IMG/VR virus record: IMGVR_UViG_3300021512_000003
Location: 17,889-81,888 of that record
Origin: a virus
DNA: 64,000 nt
Reading direction: 5' to 3' (one strand)
Under the pieces are notes generated by a model. That model was not told where the DNA came from, did not search any database, and saw nothing but the letters and a program-made list of their open reading frames with translations. How positions within the stretch are numbered: the stretch's first letter is position 1; every line of letters begins with the position of its first letter. The position numbers and the translations under genes are program-made. This document shows, piece after piece, positions 39,710 to 56,072 of the stretch.

Positions 39710-39781
39710 TTATAACAAAGCAGTCAAGCTGACAGTCTCTACGCTGCGCTTCGTTCCTGCCGCTTACTTATTGCGTTATGT
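39710..39781 (+). other. attC-like site 1 of array 2
   Basis: Left box TTATAAC with AAAG, right box GTTATGT preceded by TTGC. The arms pair imperfectly around a CTACGCTGCGC... centre of about 60 bases. The orientation matches that of classical attC with the expected gene on the left + strand. The TTA of the core is the stop codon of the methyltransferase on its right. Confidence 0.8.
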
Positions 39782-40468
39782 TGCACTAATTCTATCTTGT
39801 GCAATCTTAAAGTATTCTTCATCTAGCTCAATGCCAATAAACTTACGACCAAGGTTTTTACAAGCTACGCCTGTGCTACCGCTACCTAAAAACGGGTCGA
39901 GTATTGTTGCACCTTTATCACTAAACTTTATCAATAGGTATTCCAATAAATCAACTGGCTTTTGTGTTGGGTGTAATTTATTGCCAGTTCTATTGAACTT
40001 TAAAATATTAGGATCACGCTTACCGTTTATAAGTCTACGTCCTTTCTGTATAAAAATAATCATTTCATACTTTGGTGCAAAGTCGGCTTTTAAATCACCC
40101 ATACTAGTGTTGTTCTTTTCCCATATAAGTATATTCTTTATTTTAAATTTTTGCTCTAGTGCTTGCTTGAATTTATCAATATTATGAAAGCTACAAAAAA
40201 CATAATGCGCCGTATTGTCCGCAGCAACTCTAAATAATTCATCAATCCAAACATCAAGCCATCTTAAGTCTTTATCGTTTTTTATCTTACTGTATTTCTC
40301 AATCCTATAGTTACTCTGAAACTCCATACCATATGGCGGGTCGGTCAATATCATATCAACTGAACCATCAGGTATTTCTTTCATTCTTTCTAAGCAGTCT
40401 CCTTGCATCAACCAAGGATTTAGATCTTCTTTTTCTATATCTGCTAGTCGTTCATTTTTGTAGTGCAT
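39776..40468 (-). CDS. Cassette-borne DNA methyltransferase, N6-A/N4-C type (230 aa)
   Basis: Catalytic motif DPPY is at residues 43-46 and the AdoMet-binding motif DPFLGSGSTG is near residue 200, with a Gly-Asp-Cys target-side segment at the start. The order places it with the beta-class DNA amino-methyltransferases. No restriction partner is in the cassette, so it may protect phage DNA from host enzymes. Its TAA stop is formed by the recombination core. A second, different methyltransferase lies at 52391. Confidence 0.85.
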   Translation of the reverse strand: MHYKNERLADIEKEDLNPWLMQGDCLERMKEIPDGSVDMILTDPPYGMEFQSNYRIEKYSKIKNDKDLRWLDVWIDELFRVAADNTAHYVFCSFHNIDKFKQALEQKFKIKNILIWEKNNTSMGDLKADFAPKYEMIIFIQKGRRLINGKRDPNILKFNRTGNKLHPTQKPVDLLEYLLIKFSDKGATILDPFLGSGSTGVACKNLGRKFIGIELDEEYFKIAQDRISAT

Positions 40469-45492: not shown

Positions 45493-45577
45493 TGGGGTAG
45501 CTATTGCTAGCCACACAACTCAAGAGACTTTTCATTCACTATTTCAATTTCACTAATAAGCACAAGAGGGTAAAACA

Positions 45578-45814
45578 ATGAAAGAAGTTATCTTAGTAGA
45601 AGAAAATAAGAACACTATTGACTTATGGAGAGTGGACACCTCCAGACCCATCTTTGCCAAGAAAGGTGGTAAGCTTGTTGGTATGCTTTTGAGAGAGTCT
45701 GATGGGTGGGTCGTAAGGTATGGTGACGGGAGGGGTGTAACAGGGCACTACAGTACAAAAAAAGAGTGCCTCGCATCGACTACAGATTTTAGCTACACCT
45801 TCCGCACAAAATAG
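45578..45814 (+). CDS. Early protein, paralogue of 53130-53387 (78 aa)
   Basis: The middle reads FAKKGGKLVGMLLRESDGWVV, then TGHYSTKKECL and a final YTFR. The gene at 53130 has the matching pattern GKVVGMLVKEVEGW, TGHFEDLSDC and YTF. The family is unknown to me. A strong hairpin follows the stop. Confidence 0.7.
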   Translation: MKEVILVEENKNTIDLWRVDTSRPIFAKKGGKLVGMLLRESDGWVVRYGDGRGVTGHYSTKKECLASTTDFSYTFRTK

Positions 45815-52055: not shown

Positions 52056-52123
52056 TGTCAACATATTGACACATATACAGAAGAGAGGTTTTAGGCTACT
52101 TCGTAAGTGTCAAATAATTGACA
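52056..52123. promoter_or_regulatory. Two identical operator-like palindromes, TGTCAA-N4-TTGACA
   Basis: The first site is 52056-52071 (N4 CATA) and the second 52108-52123 (N4 ATAA). Their centres are exactly 52 bases apart, about five DNA turns, so one protein could bind both on the same face. The right arm of each site is TTGACA, usable as a -35 box, so binding would block a promoter for the block 52188-56039. Confidence 0.65.
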
Positions 52124-52187: not shown

Positions 52188-52355
52188 ATGCTAGTTAGTA
52201 TTACATTGGAAGGTATTTTAGAGGTTACACCAGAGAGTAGTTTAGAGGGGTATGCTTTAGGTGTATGGGCGAGAGATAATCTGAAAGAGGGTGGTAATCT
52301 CTTCCTTAATATCTATGAAGACCCAGAAGAGATGGGTGAAGGTGAAACTCAATAG
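52188..52355 (+). CDS. Small acidic protein (55 aa)
   Basis: ATG 52188 is preceded by GAGGATAAGGGG. The protein is acidic with an ITLEGILEVTPESSLEGYALGVW start and an Asn-Leu-Phe-Leu-Asn-Ile strand. It is the first gene after the twin palindromes and could be a regulator or short early product. No family is recognised. Confidence 0.6.
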   Translation: MLVSITLEGILEVTPESSLEGYALGVWARDNLKEGGNLFLNIYEDPEEMGEGETQ

Positions 52356-52390
52356 TGGATGCACTTATATGTTTGACAGGAGAGTAACAA

Positions 52391-53113
52391 ATGAGTAAAG
52401 TAACACTGATGCAGGGCGATTGCCTTGAGCGGATGAAGGAGATTGAGAGCGGGTCGGTTGATATGGTATTGACTAGCCCTCCGTATAATATGAACTTGCG
52501 GATACGGAACGGTAGGTACTGCTCCCGCCAAATAGTAAAAGAACTCAGCACGAAATATACTAACTTCCCCGACAATCTCCCCATGAAGGAATACTTCGAG
52601 TTTAATAGAAAAGTTATAAACGAGTGTCTGCGGGTTTCGGATCTTGTCTTTTACAACGTGCAGTTTTTAACCGGAAATAAGCCAGCGTTATTCAAGTTAC
52701 TAGGAGAGTTCAACGAAAAGGTGAAAGAGTTTATCATCTGGGATAAGGGTAACGCGCAGCCTGCAATAGGCAAGGGTGTAATGAACAGTCAGTTTGAGGT
52801 TTTAATTGTGCTACAAAACTCTAAGCCAGAAAGCAGGGCGTTCCAAACTGCGCAGTTTGACCGAGGGACGTTATCAAATGTGTTTGCTATTAAAAGGGGG
52901 AAGAAGGTAGAGAAAACACACGGAGCCACATTCCCGCAGACACTTGCAGAAAAAGTTATATCCTGCTTTTCTGCAAGCGGTTCGACTATTCTTGACCCGT
53001 TCATGGGCAGTGGTACGACTATACTGGCTGCTCAGAATCTCAATCGTAATGGTATAGGGATAGAGCTAGACGAGGGATATTTCAAGATAGCACAGGAGAG
53101 GGTGGGGCAATGA
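52391..53113 (+). CDS. DNA methyltransferase, TSPPY type (240 aa)
   Basis: The catalytic motif TSPPYN is at residues 28-33 and the AdoMet motif DPFMGSGTT near 215, with a target region between. TSPPY is typical of the beta-class N4-cytosine/N6-adenine enzymes. The start (TLMQGDCLERMKEIESGSVDMV) is close in sequence to the cassette methyltransferase at 39776, although the middles differ. Base use is slightly more GC rich than in neighbours. No restriction partner is visible. Confidence 0.85.
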   Translation: MSKVTLMQGDCLERMKEIESGSVDMVLTSPPYNMNLRIRNGRYCSRQIVKELSTKYTNFPDNLPMKEYFEFNRKVINECLRVSDLVFYNVQFLTGNKPALFKLLGEFNEKVKEFIIWDKGNAQPAIGKGVMNSQFEVLIVLQNSKPESRAFQTAQFDRGTLSNVFAIKRGKKVEKTHGATFPQTLAEKVISCFSASGSTILDPFMGSGTTILAAQNLNRNGIGIELDEGYFKIAQERVGQ

Positions 53114-53129
53114 ACAGGGAGCTAATAGT

Positions 53130-53387
53130 ATGATTAGTGCTGTACCAAGTTCAGAAGGCAAGGCAGTCATAGAAGCTAAGAATGTAAACGAGTACGAACC
53201 TATCCTTGCTATTAAAGAGGGAAAAGTTGTAGGTATGTTGGTTAAAGAGGTAGAGGGGTGGATACTCAGAACAGGAGGAAGGTGTGGATCAACAGGTCAC
53301 TTTGAAGACCTCTCTGATTGTATAGAATCTGGGGAGGAGTGTGGGTACACCTTCCACCAAGATGTAGAAGTGAAGGATGCTAAATGA
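53130..53387 (+). CDS. Early protein, paralogue of 45578-45814 (85 aa)
   Basis: It shares AIKEGKVVGMLVKEVEGWIL, STGHFEDLSDC and the final YTF with the gene at 45578. The Asp/Glu-rich ends differ. Its stop overlaps the next start. The function is unknown. Confidence 0.7.
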   Translation: MISAVPSSEGKAVIEAKNVNEYEPILAIKEGKVVGMLVKEVEGWILRTGGRCGSTGHFEDLSDCIESGEECGYTFHQDVEVKDAK

Positions 53388-53539
53388 CCTATTTGATGTT
53401 GTGTATTCACAAGCAAACTAAACTGAAATTAGTCTCATGGGCTACAGTTTGTAAGGGGCAGCATGAGCAGGGCTTTGTCTACAAGAAGTGCTGCGTAGTG
53501 TGTGGTGGAGAGGTAATCAGACAGAGACTACCTATATGA
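53384..53539 (+). CDS. Small protein with CXXC motif (51 aa)
   Basis: ATG 53384 overlaps the previous TGA, and the TGA at 53537 overlaps the next ATG. The frame is basic, with KKCCVVCGG near the end, which could bind zinc with earlier Cys. The two overlaps support it as a real gene in the operon. Confidence 0.55.
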   Translation: MTYLMLCIHKQTKLKLVSWATVCKGQHEQGFVYKKCCVVCGGEVIRQRLPI

Positions 53540-53832
53540 AAATATCTGATGAAGGTACAGCTTTGTTATTAAGAGAGGAGCTTGCAGATGATGGGGTTGT
53601 TACTACCTACTACACAATAACCCTTGCCTCTATTTTATCTGAAGCTTCTTATATGAAGATCAGTAGAGAAGATATTATGAATGGATGTTTCTTTTTTAAG
53701 GTGTTCCTTACTACAGAAGATGGTGAAGAGATTGCCGAGATTGTGTTAGCAGAGCCTAAGAGGGTTTCTGATAGCTTCAAAGCTCTGCTTGCTGACATCG
53801 GTTTTAAGACACTACAATCTAAACTTAGTTAA
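53536..53832 (+). CDS. Hypothetical protein (98 aa)
   Basis: ATG 53536 overlaps the upstream stop. A longer frame from 53488 lies within the upstream gene. The protein has a helical N terminus, a Tyr-rich strand (VVTTYYTITLASIL) and an acidic C-terminal part ending in a helix. No family is recognised. Confidence 0.65.
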   Translation: MKISDEGTALLLREELADDGVVTTYYTITLASILSEASYMKISREDIMNGCFFFKVFLTTEDGEEIAEIVLAEPKRVSDSFKALLADIGFKTLQSKLS

Positions 53833-53845
53833 TAGGAGGTTTTAT

Positions 53846-54835
53846 ATGAGGCTTGAGGATATTGGTTTTTATACGTTGAGCGATGAGAGGGCTAAGAGCA
53901 CATCTCCAACATCACAAATGAAGCGTTGTGAGATGATTATTAATGAGTACTGTAATTTCAAGTGCCCCTACTGCAGAGGTTTGGCTGAGATGGTGTTCGA
54001 TAATAGAATAAAAAAGGAACTCTCGATAGAGGAGATTAAGAGAAATATTGATCTCTGGTGTGACGGACTCCCCTTGGAGAATATTAGGTTTTCTGGTGGG
54101 GAGCCTACTTTCCATAAACACATTGTCCAAGCTGTTGAGTATGCCAGACAAAGTGGGGTTAAGAGGGTGGCGATTTCCACCAATGGTTCCAACAAGAGAA
54201 AAATATATGAAAGGTTGCTTGCCGCAGGGTGTAATGACTTTTCAATATCTCTTGACGCAGCAGATGCAGAAACAGGTGACAGGATGGCTGGTAACATCTC
54301 TGGTGCATGGGCAAAGGTGGTCAGAAATATCGAGTGGATTTCACAAAGAACTTATGTTACTGTAGGTGTGGTGTTGGAGCCAGAAAATATTGAAGGGTTT
54401 ATTCAGATTGTTGAGTATGCAAGCTCACTTGGGGTTTCTGACATACGAGTTATCCCCTCTGCACAGTGGGATCAGCCACTACCAGGATTGGCAAACATCA
54501 ACCAAAGTATACTAGACAGACACCCTATTCTGAGGTATAGAGTAAACAACTTCATACTAGGAAAGAGAATCAGAGGTTTAACTGAAACTTCAGCAAAAAG
54601 TTGTCCACTAGTATTGGATGATTCAGTCATTGCCGGAGAAGACCACTACCCATGTGTAATCTATATGCGAGAGCAAGGACAACCCATAGGCAAAGTAAGT
54701 GAAACAATGAGGCAGGAGCGCGTTGATTGGCTCAAGCGTACTAATACCCACCAAGAACTGATATGCAAAAATAATTGCCTTGACGTGTGTGTGGATTACA
54801 ATAAGAGAAGTGTAGGGTTTTCAATAAAGGGGTAA
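53846..54835 (+). CDS. Radical SAM enzyme with C-terminal Cys cluster (329 aa)
   Basis: I use ATG 53846, 6 bases after AGGAGG. The CX3CX2C motif is at Cys36, Cys40 and Cys43 (CNFKCPYC), followed by a GGEP motif (RFSGGEPTFHK) that contacts AdoMet. The C-terminal part has a Cys-rich region (SCPL, YPC, CKNNCLDVC) suggesting a SPASM-like auxiliary cluster. Such enzymes modify peptides or small molecules. A substrate peptide could be one of the small adjacent genes. No phage role is known to me. Confidence 0.8.
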   Translation: MRLEDIGFYTLSDERAKSTSPTSQMKRCEMIINEYCNFKCPYCRGLAEMVFDNRIKKELSIEEIKRNIDLWCDGLPLENIRFSGGEPTFHKHIVQAVEYARQSGVKRVAISTNGSNKRKIYERLLAAGCNDFSISLDAADAETGDRMAGNISGAWAKVVRNIEWISQRTYVTVGVVLEPENIEGFIQIVEYASSLGVSDIRVIPSAQWDQPLPGLANINQSILDRHPILRYRVNNFILGKRIRGLTETSAKSCPLVLDDSVIAGEDHYPCVIYMREQGQPIGKVSETMRQERVDWLKRTNTHQELICKNNCLDVCVDYNKRSVGFSIKG

Positions 54836-54838
54836 GTT

Positions 54839-55282
54839 ATGACAAAAGATGACGCAGTAACTTACGCAACAGAAGCACACAGGGGTCAGATGTATGGCGA
54901 TAAACCTTACGTTTACCATTTAGAGCAAGTGGCAAAGGAGTACCTCTCGTTTTTCAGAGGGAGTGCAGTAGAGGATGGTGTAGTTGTAGCCTACCTCCAC
55001 GATGTCTTAGAGGACACAGATAAGACAGAAGAAAACTTACTACAGGCAGGCTTCTCTCAAGGAGTTGTTTCTTGTGTTAGCAAGCTCACCTTTTGGAACA
55101 AGTTATCACGGGAGCAGTACATAGAGGACATTAGAGTGTTGCGTCATAGTCCGACAATACTACGTGTTGCTTGGGAGGTTAAGGTGGCAGACACAATGTC
55201 AAACTTGAGACACAGTGTAAAGGAGGGTAACGTAAGGAGAATATCTAAATACATGGAGCAAGTGAGGAGACTTTATGCTTAA
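54839..55282 (+). CDS. HD-domain phosphohydrolase, SpoT-like (147 aa)
   Basis: Metal-binding residues of an HD hydrolase are visible: His14, His27, the pair His54-Asp55 in AYLHDVLEDT and a late Asp in KVADTMSNLRHS. The YLHDVLEDT segment resembles the (p)ppGpp hydrolase half of SpoT, with no synthetase domain attached. It could destroy host alarmone or another nucleotide signal, limiting a stringent or anti-phage response. It lies three bases after the radical SAM gene. Confidence 0.75.
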   Translation: MTKDDAVTYATEAHRGQMYGDKPYVYHLEQVAKEYLSFFRGSAVEDGVVVAYLHDVLEDTDKTEENLLQAGFSQGVVSCVSKLTFWNKLSREQYIEDIRVLRHSPTILRVAWEVKVADTMSNLRHSVKEGNVRRISKYMEQVRRLYA

Positions 55283-55349
55283 GACAACTCTGATAGGTTA
55301 GAGAGGGCACGTTAGTGGTGTGCATATATTTATTTCACAGGAGAAGAGT

Positions 55350-56039
55350 ATGATTGTATTGAACAGAATAGAGACACCAGATGGTACACAAATTACAAGT
55401 CACTACAGGCACGACTATGTGAGCCACGAAGATGCAAATGGGTTCGTTTACAGTGTAGATGGTGGTTTGGACTACATTAAGCGTAGTGCCCATAGAGACG
55501 CTCCTTCGTGTAAAGAGCTTTCAGTGTACTCTGAAGATCCTTTTGAAGAAGTTCGGGAGGCATTCCTCTGGGGTACTTATGGGAAAGATGGTGGAGAGGC
55601 TCTTAAGCACGTAGCTCTTTGTGAGCTGACAGATGAACACATACAGGCTATACTTGACACACAGGGTCACTTATCTGTAGACGTGTGTGAGCTGTTCCTC
55701 TTAGAGCAGAAGTGGAGAGAGAGTCACCAAGAGAGGCCTAGAGAGCAATCTGAACTAGGGGTACAAGAAGAGCACATTAGGTGGGGTAAGGCACTTGCTG
55801 AGATGCTCCTTGGTGCTGAGGAGTACAATAGTCATAAGGTGACAGAGTTCTCTACCTTTCCAAAGAAGATGCTTCTGTTGTTGTGTAAGGAGTTGGAGAA
55901 AGTGGAGGTTTCTTGTACATACATCCAACTCTGCACGGATATGTCAGGAAGTGTTTACCAACAGGACTATTGGGGAGAAGGGGATCACCCGCTGGGGCAC
56001 AGAGACAGGCTACTGTTAGGTGTTGGAGAGATAACTTAG
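55350..56039 (+). CDS. Hypothetical protein (229 aa)
   Basis: I use ATG 55350 after AGGAG. The middle contains a GGLDYIKRSAHRD segment, then GTYGKDGGEALKHVALCELTDEHIQAIL, a pattern of a small family seen in phages. The C-terminal part has Cys/Tyr-rich strands. The function is unknown. It is the last gene of the operon and is followed by a strong terminator. Confidence 0.65.
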   Translation: MIVLNRIETPDGTQITSHYRHDYVSHEDANGFVYSVDGGLDYIKRSAHRDAPSCKELSVYSEDPFEEVREAFLWGTYGKDGGEALKHVALCELTDEHIQAILDTQGHLSVDVCELFLLEQKWRESHQERPREQSELGVQEEHIRWGKALAEMLLGAEEYNSHKVTEFSTFPKKMLLLLCKELEKVEVSCTYIQLCTDMSGSVYQQDYWGEGDHPLGHRDRLLLGVGEIT

Positions 56040-56050
56040 TATACAGTGAA

Positions 56051-56072
56051 GGGGCACAAAGCCCCTTTTTTT
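56051..56072. terminator. Bidirectional Rho-independent terminator between convergent operons
   Basis: GGGGC and GCCCC form a stem with an ACAAA loop, followed by seven Ts on the + strand. It sits between the + gene ending at 56039 and the - gene ending at 56081 and could serve both directions. Confidence 0.85.

Follow-up and report, generated by a model that had tools for sequence, protein, structure and literature searches.

Here, we describe a run of eight rightward genes at positions 52188-56039 of a 64,000-nucleotide stretch of viral DNA (hereafter the window), which covers bases 17,889-81,888 of the 81,888-base virus record IMGVR_UViG_3300021512_000003. The source of the run would be an uncultivated tailed phage of approximately 82 kb with myovirus-like baseplate genes. 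The run encodes a DNA methyltransferase, a small alarmone hydrolase (SAH) and a radical S-adenosylmethionine (rSAM) enzyme, together with four tiny proteins and a closing gene without assigned function. The new part of the analysis concerns the rSAM enzyme, a member of a family that is enriched in viruses and still uncharacterised. An earlier model-made annotation based on the letters and reading frames of the window (the sequence-only reading) had combined these genes into one anti-defence or host-takeover block, and its claims are considered below alongside the results that bear on them.

Layout of the run and its two smaller enzymes

According to the calls of open reading frames (ORFs), the eight genes are separated by gaps of 3-67 nt or joined by ATGA overlaps, the latter at 53384 and 53536, and clear ribosome-binding sites lie upstream of 52188, 52391, 53846, 54839 and 55350. 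Two operator-like palindromes precede the run, at 52056..52071 (TGTCAACATATTGACA) and at 52108..52123 (TGTCAAATAATTGACA), both exact matches to TGTCAA-N4-TTGACA, and the second overlaps a sigma70-like consensus -35 box (TTGACA) at 52118. The two are 52 bp apart, with a chance expectation of 0.01 and two copies in 0 of 100 shuffles. No further perfect copy occurs elsewhere in the 64-kb window, and the other 17.9 kb of the record contains none at up to two mismatches. A strong intrinsic terminator on the plus strand (56048..56068, GAAGGGGCACAAAGCCCCTTT) closes the run. The view of one rightward unit behind twin operators is thus borne out by ORFs at the positions given for them, by two exact palindromes and by compact genes on the same strand. 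We infer that the eight genes share one transcript, which a repressor acting on the two palindromic operators would probably hold in check and the terminator would end.

The second gene (52391..53113, plus strand) encodes a 240-aa beta-class DNA methyltransferase, as had been proposed, with matches to PF01555 (N6_N4_Mtase, E 1.7e-34) and phrog_67 (E 6.6e-53) and with motif IV (TSPPYN) preceding motif I (DPFMGSGT), the order that defines the class. The closest solved chains are the N4-cytosine methyltransferase 8s9m and DpnA (5hfj), and the target base may be either N4-C or N6-A. When the whole region was used in a DNA search for the nearest phages, only the methyltransferase gave matches, including 72% DNA identity across 507 bases in Pseudoalteromonas phage Y7. 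This phage encodes a second DNA methyltransferase, of the DPPY type, on the minus strand of the window (39776-40468).

The gene directly downstream of the rSAM gene (54839..55282, plus strand) encodes a 147-aa HD_4 protein, matching PF13328 above its cut-off (E 2.6e-07) and phrog_990 (E 1.3e-34). It is a stand-alone hydrolase domain without a synthetase domain and matches the N-terminal part of SpoT/RelA, which upholds the proposed kinship with the hydrolase half of SpoT. A loss of metal ligands was looked for, and the full set of metal-binding and catalytic residues (H27, H54-D55, E58-D59, D118 and N122) is intact and shared with 6yvc, 7smg and phage homologues. Its PDB relatives include the SAHs 6yvc/6z3n, the (p)ppApp hydrolase 7smg and Rel N-terminal domains, and its family was found in 328 phage records. 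Judged by these residues, the protein is a complete SAH of an already known phage kind, and its predicted activity would be to strip the 3'-pyrophosphate from (p)ppGpp and/or (p)ppApp. For the SAH reported from the Pakpunavirus Adele, the authors could likewise not choose between ppGpp and ppApp (PMC12846349).

The last gene (55350..56039, plus strand), not named in the earlier annotation, has a Shine-Dalgarno (SD) sequence, AGGAGA, before the ATG at 55350 and encodes a 229-aa protein with no function assigned, for which Pfam gave only a sub-threshold match to DUF7695. Regarding the phage as a whole, the capsid protein is closest to Limnohabitans phage DC31 (53%) and Curvibacter phage P26059A, a match that we considered insufficient for naming a host, and the T7-type DNA polymerase is closest to those of many myophages. 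Outside the window, the same record (L005 in our set of loci) carries a large terminase gene (L005:11534-14027) interrupted by approximately 1 kb containing an HNH-type ORF, with a sub-threshold group I intron match in this region (L005:12007-12556; 21 bits against a gathering threshold of 50), as well as a 1039-aa ribonucleotide reductase-like ORF on the minus strand (L005:1398-4517) with an apparent intein-like insertion.

A virus-enriched family of radical-SAM/twitch enzymes

The 329-aa radical-SAM/twitch enzyme (53846..54835, plus strand; PF04055, Radical_SAM, E 1.6e-23) was aligned with its relatives to give 71 sequences, in which the cluster motif C36-x3-C40-x2-C43 and the SAM-binding residues G84-G85-E86 are invariant. 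Mean column identity is 45-48%, and invariant residues are also found far outside the SAM core (G7, Y9, R15, R27, R232, R275 and D258-D259), including a GFY motif near the N-terminus that mostly reads GFYTL. Among the C-terminal cysteines of the auxiliary cluster, C253, C270, C307 and C311 are invariant and C315 is present in at least 90% of the sequences. Because there are five of these cysteines, a set suited to one auxiliary cluster and not the seven-Cys motif with which SPASM domains hold two, the enzyme likely has, as far as its sequence tells, a single cluster of the twitch type. The extra Cys clusters of the sequence-only reading therefore hold in part: auxiliary cysteines are present, but as one twitch-type motif and not as a full SPASM domain.

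The enzyme scores far below every NCBIfam equivalog cut-off, and its best sub-threshold match is MoaA (78 bits against 284). The AlphaFold2 model (predicted local distance difference test, pLDDT, 92.9) has its best full-length PDB fold match in BlsE, a cytosylglucuronate decarboxylase (template modelling, TM, score 0.65/0.66), followed by DesII and MoaA and then by the cores of viperin and sactisynthase. BlsE, DesII and MoaA are enzymes with nucleotide or nucleotide-sugar substrates. Identity with BlsE itself was rejected, as TIGR04466 gave 36.6 bits against a cut-off of 400 and the likeness is in fold alone. These fold neighbours, together with several invariant arginines, weakly suggest that the substrate is a nucleic acid or a small molecule bearing phosphate.

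At least 104 relatives are present in IMG/VR, on sequences ranging from small fragments to contigs of 545 kb, and 80 of these were kept as the set of viral loci. Relatives with more than 50% identity were found in only 3 of 50,697 phage records, all of them from uncultured huge phages, and no named isolate phage in this collection carries the family. A few further relatives reside on contigs of metagenome-assembled genomes (MAGs), several of which are probably viral judging by their neighbouring genes, and none of the titles and abstracts listed by literature searches was relevant to the family in phages. Distant cellular relatives (23-24% identity) were seen in Anaerolineales and Desulfococcaceae MAGs (L092:7866-10153 and L093:4125-6705), directly upstream of a PHP-domain gene resembling a 3',5'-nucleoside bisphosphate phosphatase. 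In a 735-kb uncultured phage (L003:7506-8972), the enzyme carries a fused N-terminal extension of GGDEF-like appearance (FSGDE, judged by eye), which Pfam did not pick up at E 0.1, while in the 485-kb record LR745208 (L004:7764-8822) the open frame of the relative does not include the CxxxCxxC region, possibly reflecting a degenerate copy, a frameshift or an assembly error. Additionally, a second gene, assigned to rSAM by Pfam, is located no more than a few kb from the family member at L032:6489-7373, and rSAM-like second genes, recognised by sequence, are present nearby at L070:10149-10973, L087:6973-7554, L088:9564-10427 and L089:9242-10261.

Gene neighbourhoods of the family in other viruses

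Neighbouring genes were compared by tiling and clustering the ORFs of 84 loci, and contig-wide proximity was tested in 41 larger virus contigs carrying the rSAM gene. An HD_4 gene lies within 8 kb of it in one of the 41 contigs, namely the window record itself, against 0.55 expected; in L003, which is outside this set, an HD gene is found at approximately 6 kb. Methyltransferases are present in some of the loci as ordinary passengers. Since HD_4 adjoins the rSAM gene only here among the 41 contigs and the methyltransferases are mere passengers, the three enzymes do not form a conserved linked system. The idea of a methyltransferase-HD-rSAM island was accordingly rejected by the contig-wide searches, and the single functional block of the sequence-only reading did not survive a check for linkage in other phages, which is largely absent.

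These results bear directly on the proposal of one anti-defence device, in which the methyltransferase would counter restriction, the SAH would counter alarmone-based abortive infection and the rSAM enzyme would counter another nucleotide-signal defence. All three activities are compatible with counter-defence or takeover, the genes share the operators, and HD-alarmone phosphodiesterases described from jumbo phages have been proposed to counter alarmone-based immunity (PMC7824862), a role that published authors also give to such hydrolases elsewhere (PMC12846349). However, the three enzymes show no conserved co-occurrence, many related phages have the rSAM enzyme alone, the HD protein has no PADLOC match, and the rSAM enzyme matches the prokaryotic viperin (pVip) profile via its SAM core alone. 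We therefore consider a joint device unlikely, while a putative anti-defence role is plausible for the methyltransferase and for the SAH, each separately.

A different gene accompanies the family repeatedly. A protein of approximately 90 aa, here called the CRPK partner, recurs beside the rSAM gene in 25 of approximately 82 loci (for example L083:7389-7661 and L065:7726-7992, with copies in about 22 other loci), is mostly directly adjacent and in one phage is fused to the C-terminus of the enzyme (L077:8001-9236). Its signature is W..WRxGS...R...A(I/V)G(Y/W)C...CRPK...(A/V)VMF...FWxHL..EF, and its model is a compact alpha-beta-beta-beta-alpha domain (pLDDT 94.4) with no significant fold match in PDB or BFVD and no Pfam or PHROG match passing the cut-offs. 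On the rSAM tree the partner occurs across all branches without clustering, requiring 17 changes, at least nine of them forced by well-supported branches, and it was not found in the window record or its three closest relatives, which form one clade (support 99). Each of the 11 copies detected in the 41 contigs is no more than 2.4 kb away from the rSAM gene (0.55 expected, P 2e-15), a test that is partly circular, as the contig-wide profile was built from rSAM-adjacent copies. A partner-first scan of the collection, seeded with a 7-sequence subset of the 24 partner sequences, recovered new contigs with an rSAM gene within 5 kb (L107, L108, L114 and L119); around half of the new contigs have none within this distance (L109, L118 and L121/L122), which, like the circularity, counts against the preferred reading given below. 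We conclude that the CRPK protein is a real but dispensable partner of the enzyme.

Other neighbours raise the question of whether the enzyme acts on RNA, within the tRNA and RNA repair gear of large phages. RtcB stands beside it in about six independent loci (L001, L025, L033, L034, L043 and L076), RNA ligases, RlaP and a poly(A)/CCA-type polymerase are among the near neighbours, and RlaP lies within 8 kb in six contigs against 2.3 expected (P 0.02). The alpha-beta-beta-beta-alpha order of the partner also fits, with SRP9/14 chains heading its fold list, though none of these matches is significant. The proximity of RtcB is weak (two contigs within 3 kb against 0.4 expected, P 0.06), so that RtcB was rejected as a fixed partner, and the phage of the window has neither RtcB nor RlaP. 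On balance we doubt this explanation. GGDEF was likewise rejected as a general partner: a mini-GGDEF gene adjoins the rSAM gene in one clade, with five changes on the tree, and because of this confinement the adjacency is explained by inheritance. The RtcB/RlaP and mini-GGDEF contexts and the cellular PHP neighbour are hints that the substrate may be a nucleotide or RNA, but do not amount to evidence.

The tiny proteins had been put forward as peptide substrates of the rSAM enzyme, which would then be a maturase of ribosomally synthesised and post-translationally modified peptides (RiPPs). The count of three such proteins is correct between the methyltransferase and rSAM genes, and becomes four with the first gene of the run. 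That gene (52188..52355, plus strand, with an SD-like AGGATAAGGGG) encodes a 55-aa protein of no assigned function, which has no family match in Pfam or PHROG and a single marginal match (E 0.015) in the rSAM loci. It is followed, beyond the methyltransferase gene, by an 85-aa phage protein (53130..53387), a 51-aa Cys-containing ORFan with ATGA overlaps with both neighbours (53384..53539) and a 98-aa ORFan whose gene immediately precedes the rSAM gene (53536..53832), all on the plus strand. This position and the overlaps would suit precursor peptides, as would the cysteines in the 51-aa and 85-aa proteins and the presence of sactipeptide and ranthipeptide maturases among the sub-threshold profile and fold matches of the enzyme. 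Against this, the tiny ORFs do not amount to a conserved precursor gene: none of these small proteins has a convincing relative beside the 82 other rSAM copies, and the 85-aa and 98-aa proteins have none in the 50,697 phage records. A paralogue of the 85-aa protein is encoded at a large distance from the rSAM gene (45560-45811, plus strand, same window; phmmer E 1.4e-13), the enzyme does not have the seven-Cys SPASM motif, and the small neighbour that does recur in the family is a different, folded domain of 90 aa. Neither the 85-aa nor the 98-aa protein is a diverged CRPK partner according to profile comparison (for the 98-aa protein against partner profile A4, hhalign probability 0.2%). A role of the tiny proteins as substrates is thus very unlikely, and they would not be modified by their neighbour.

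Interpretation and relation to known systems

Our preferred reading, to which we assign a probability of roughly 0.6, is that of a single rightward accessory unit with three independently acting enzymes, including a partnerless member of a virus-enriched rSAM family that probably has a phosphate-bearing substrate. The orphan methyltransferase would mark DNA and the SAH would hydrolyse alarmones, each on its own. In the rSAM enzyme, the cluster held by C36, C40 and C43 would generate a 5'-deoxyadenosyl radical. A conserved, probably phosphate-bearing substrate, such as a nucleotide, a nucleotide-sugar or a nucleic acid, would then be modified with the help of one auxiliary [4Fe-4S] cluster. The family would normally be autonomous and would repeatedly pair with its dedicated folded partner, which the phage of the window and its closest relatives would do without.

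Several points weigh against this reading. A weak hairpin lies between the HD gene and the last gene (55307-55323). The proposed kind of substrate is deduced from the fold neighbours and the conserved arginines, and the sactipeptide maturases 5why, SuiB and SkfB are among the fold matches, as are peptide maturases among the sub-threshold NCBIfam matches. Further, the nearest rSAM clade consists of four sequences, leaving room for a clade-specific tiny substrate.

A more far-reaching version is also more tentative, and we regard it as possible at best: the family, present here and in more than a hundred phages, mostly large and uncultivated, would modify a universal substrate of the host, be it a nucleotide, a nucleotide-sugar or RNA, in a manner not yet described. 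It would frequently be aided by its 90-residue partner of new fold, and would here be co-expressed with the SAH and the methyltransferase as a host-takeover cassette. That the enzyme is a phage viperin producing 3'-deoxy-3',4'-didehydro nucleotides is extremely improbable and was rejected, since, despite a PADLOC pVip match (E 8e-17 over residues 31-158) and viperins among the fold matches, the full-length profile NF038283 of NCBIfam, with a cut-off of 180 bits, reaches 50 bits and covers residues 32-147 only, the fold match is confined to the SAM core (TM 0.45) and the C-terminus conserved in the family is of the twitch type.

Taken as a whole, the operon is a phage accessory cassette of an ordinary sort, and its interest lies in the rSAM enzyme, which gives access to a viral family that is uncharacterised and unusually strictly conserved. 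Together with its small folded and sometimes fused partner in other phages, this family represents a concrete enzyme-partner pair with testable chemistry, and the search for its substrates is redirected away from the adjoining tiny ORFs.

In comparison with known systems, the methyltransferase shares the motif IV-I order and the single polypeptide with phage orphan beta-class DNA methyltransferases (phrog_67, DpnA-like and CcrM-like); no cognate nuclease was seen adjoining it, and it shows no unusual feature compared with the common members of this group. The SAH shares the HD_4 fold and the H..HD..ED..D..N residues with PaSAH-type enzymes (6yvc/6z3n), 7smg and the phage HD-alarmone phosphodiesterases of phrog_990, and differs in adjoining an rSAM enzyme and a methyltransferase and in having approximately 40% identity to other phage members. 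With the pVips, the rSAM enzyme has the radical-SAM core in common, whereas it has no match outside this core, scores below the family cut-off and carries an extra twitch domain. It shares the CxxxCxxC SAM core, the partial TIM barrel and the C-terminal auxiliary cysteines with radical-SAM/twitch and SPASM enzymes such as BlsE, DesII, MoaA, PapB and W_rSAM_matur, from which its family is set apart by an N-terminal GFYTL..RA motif, a C-terminal CX3CX3C motif and its enrichment in viruses.

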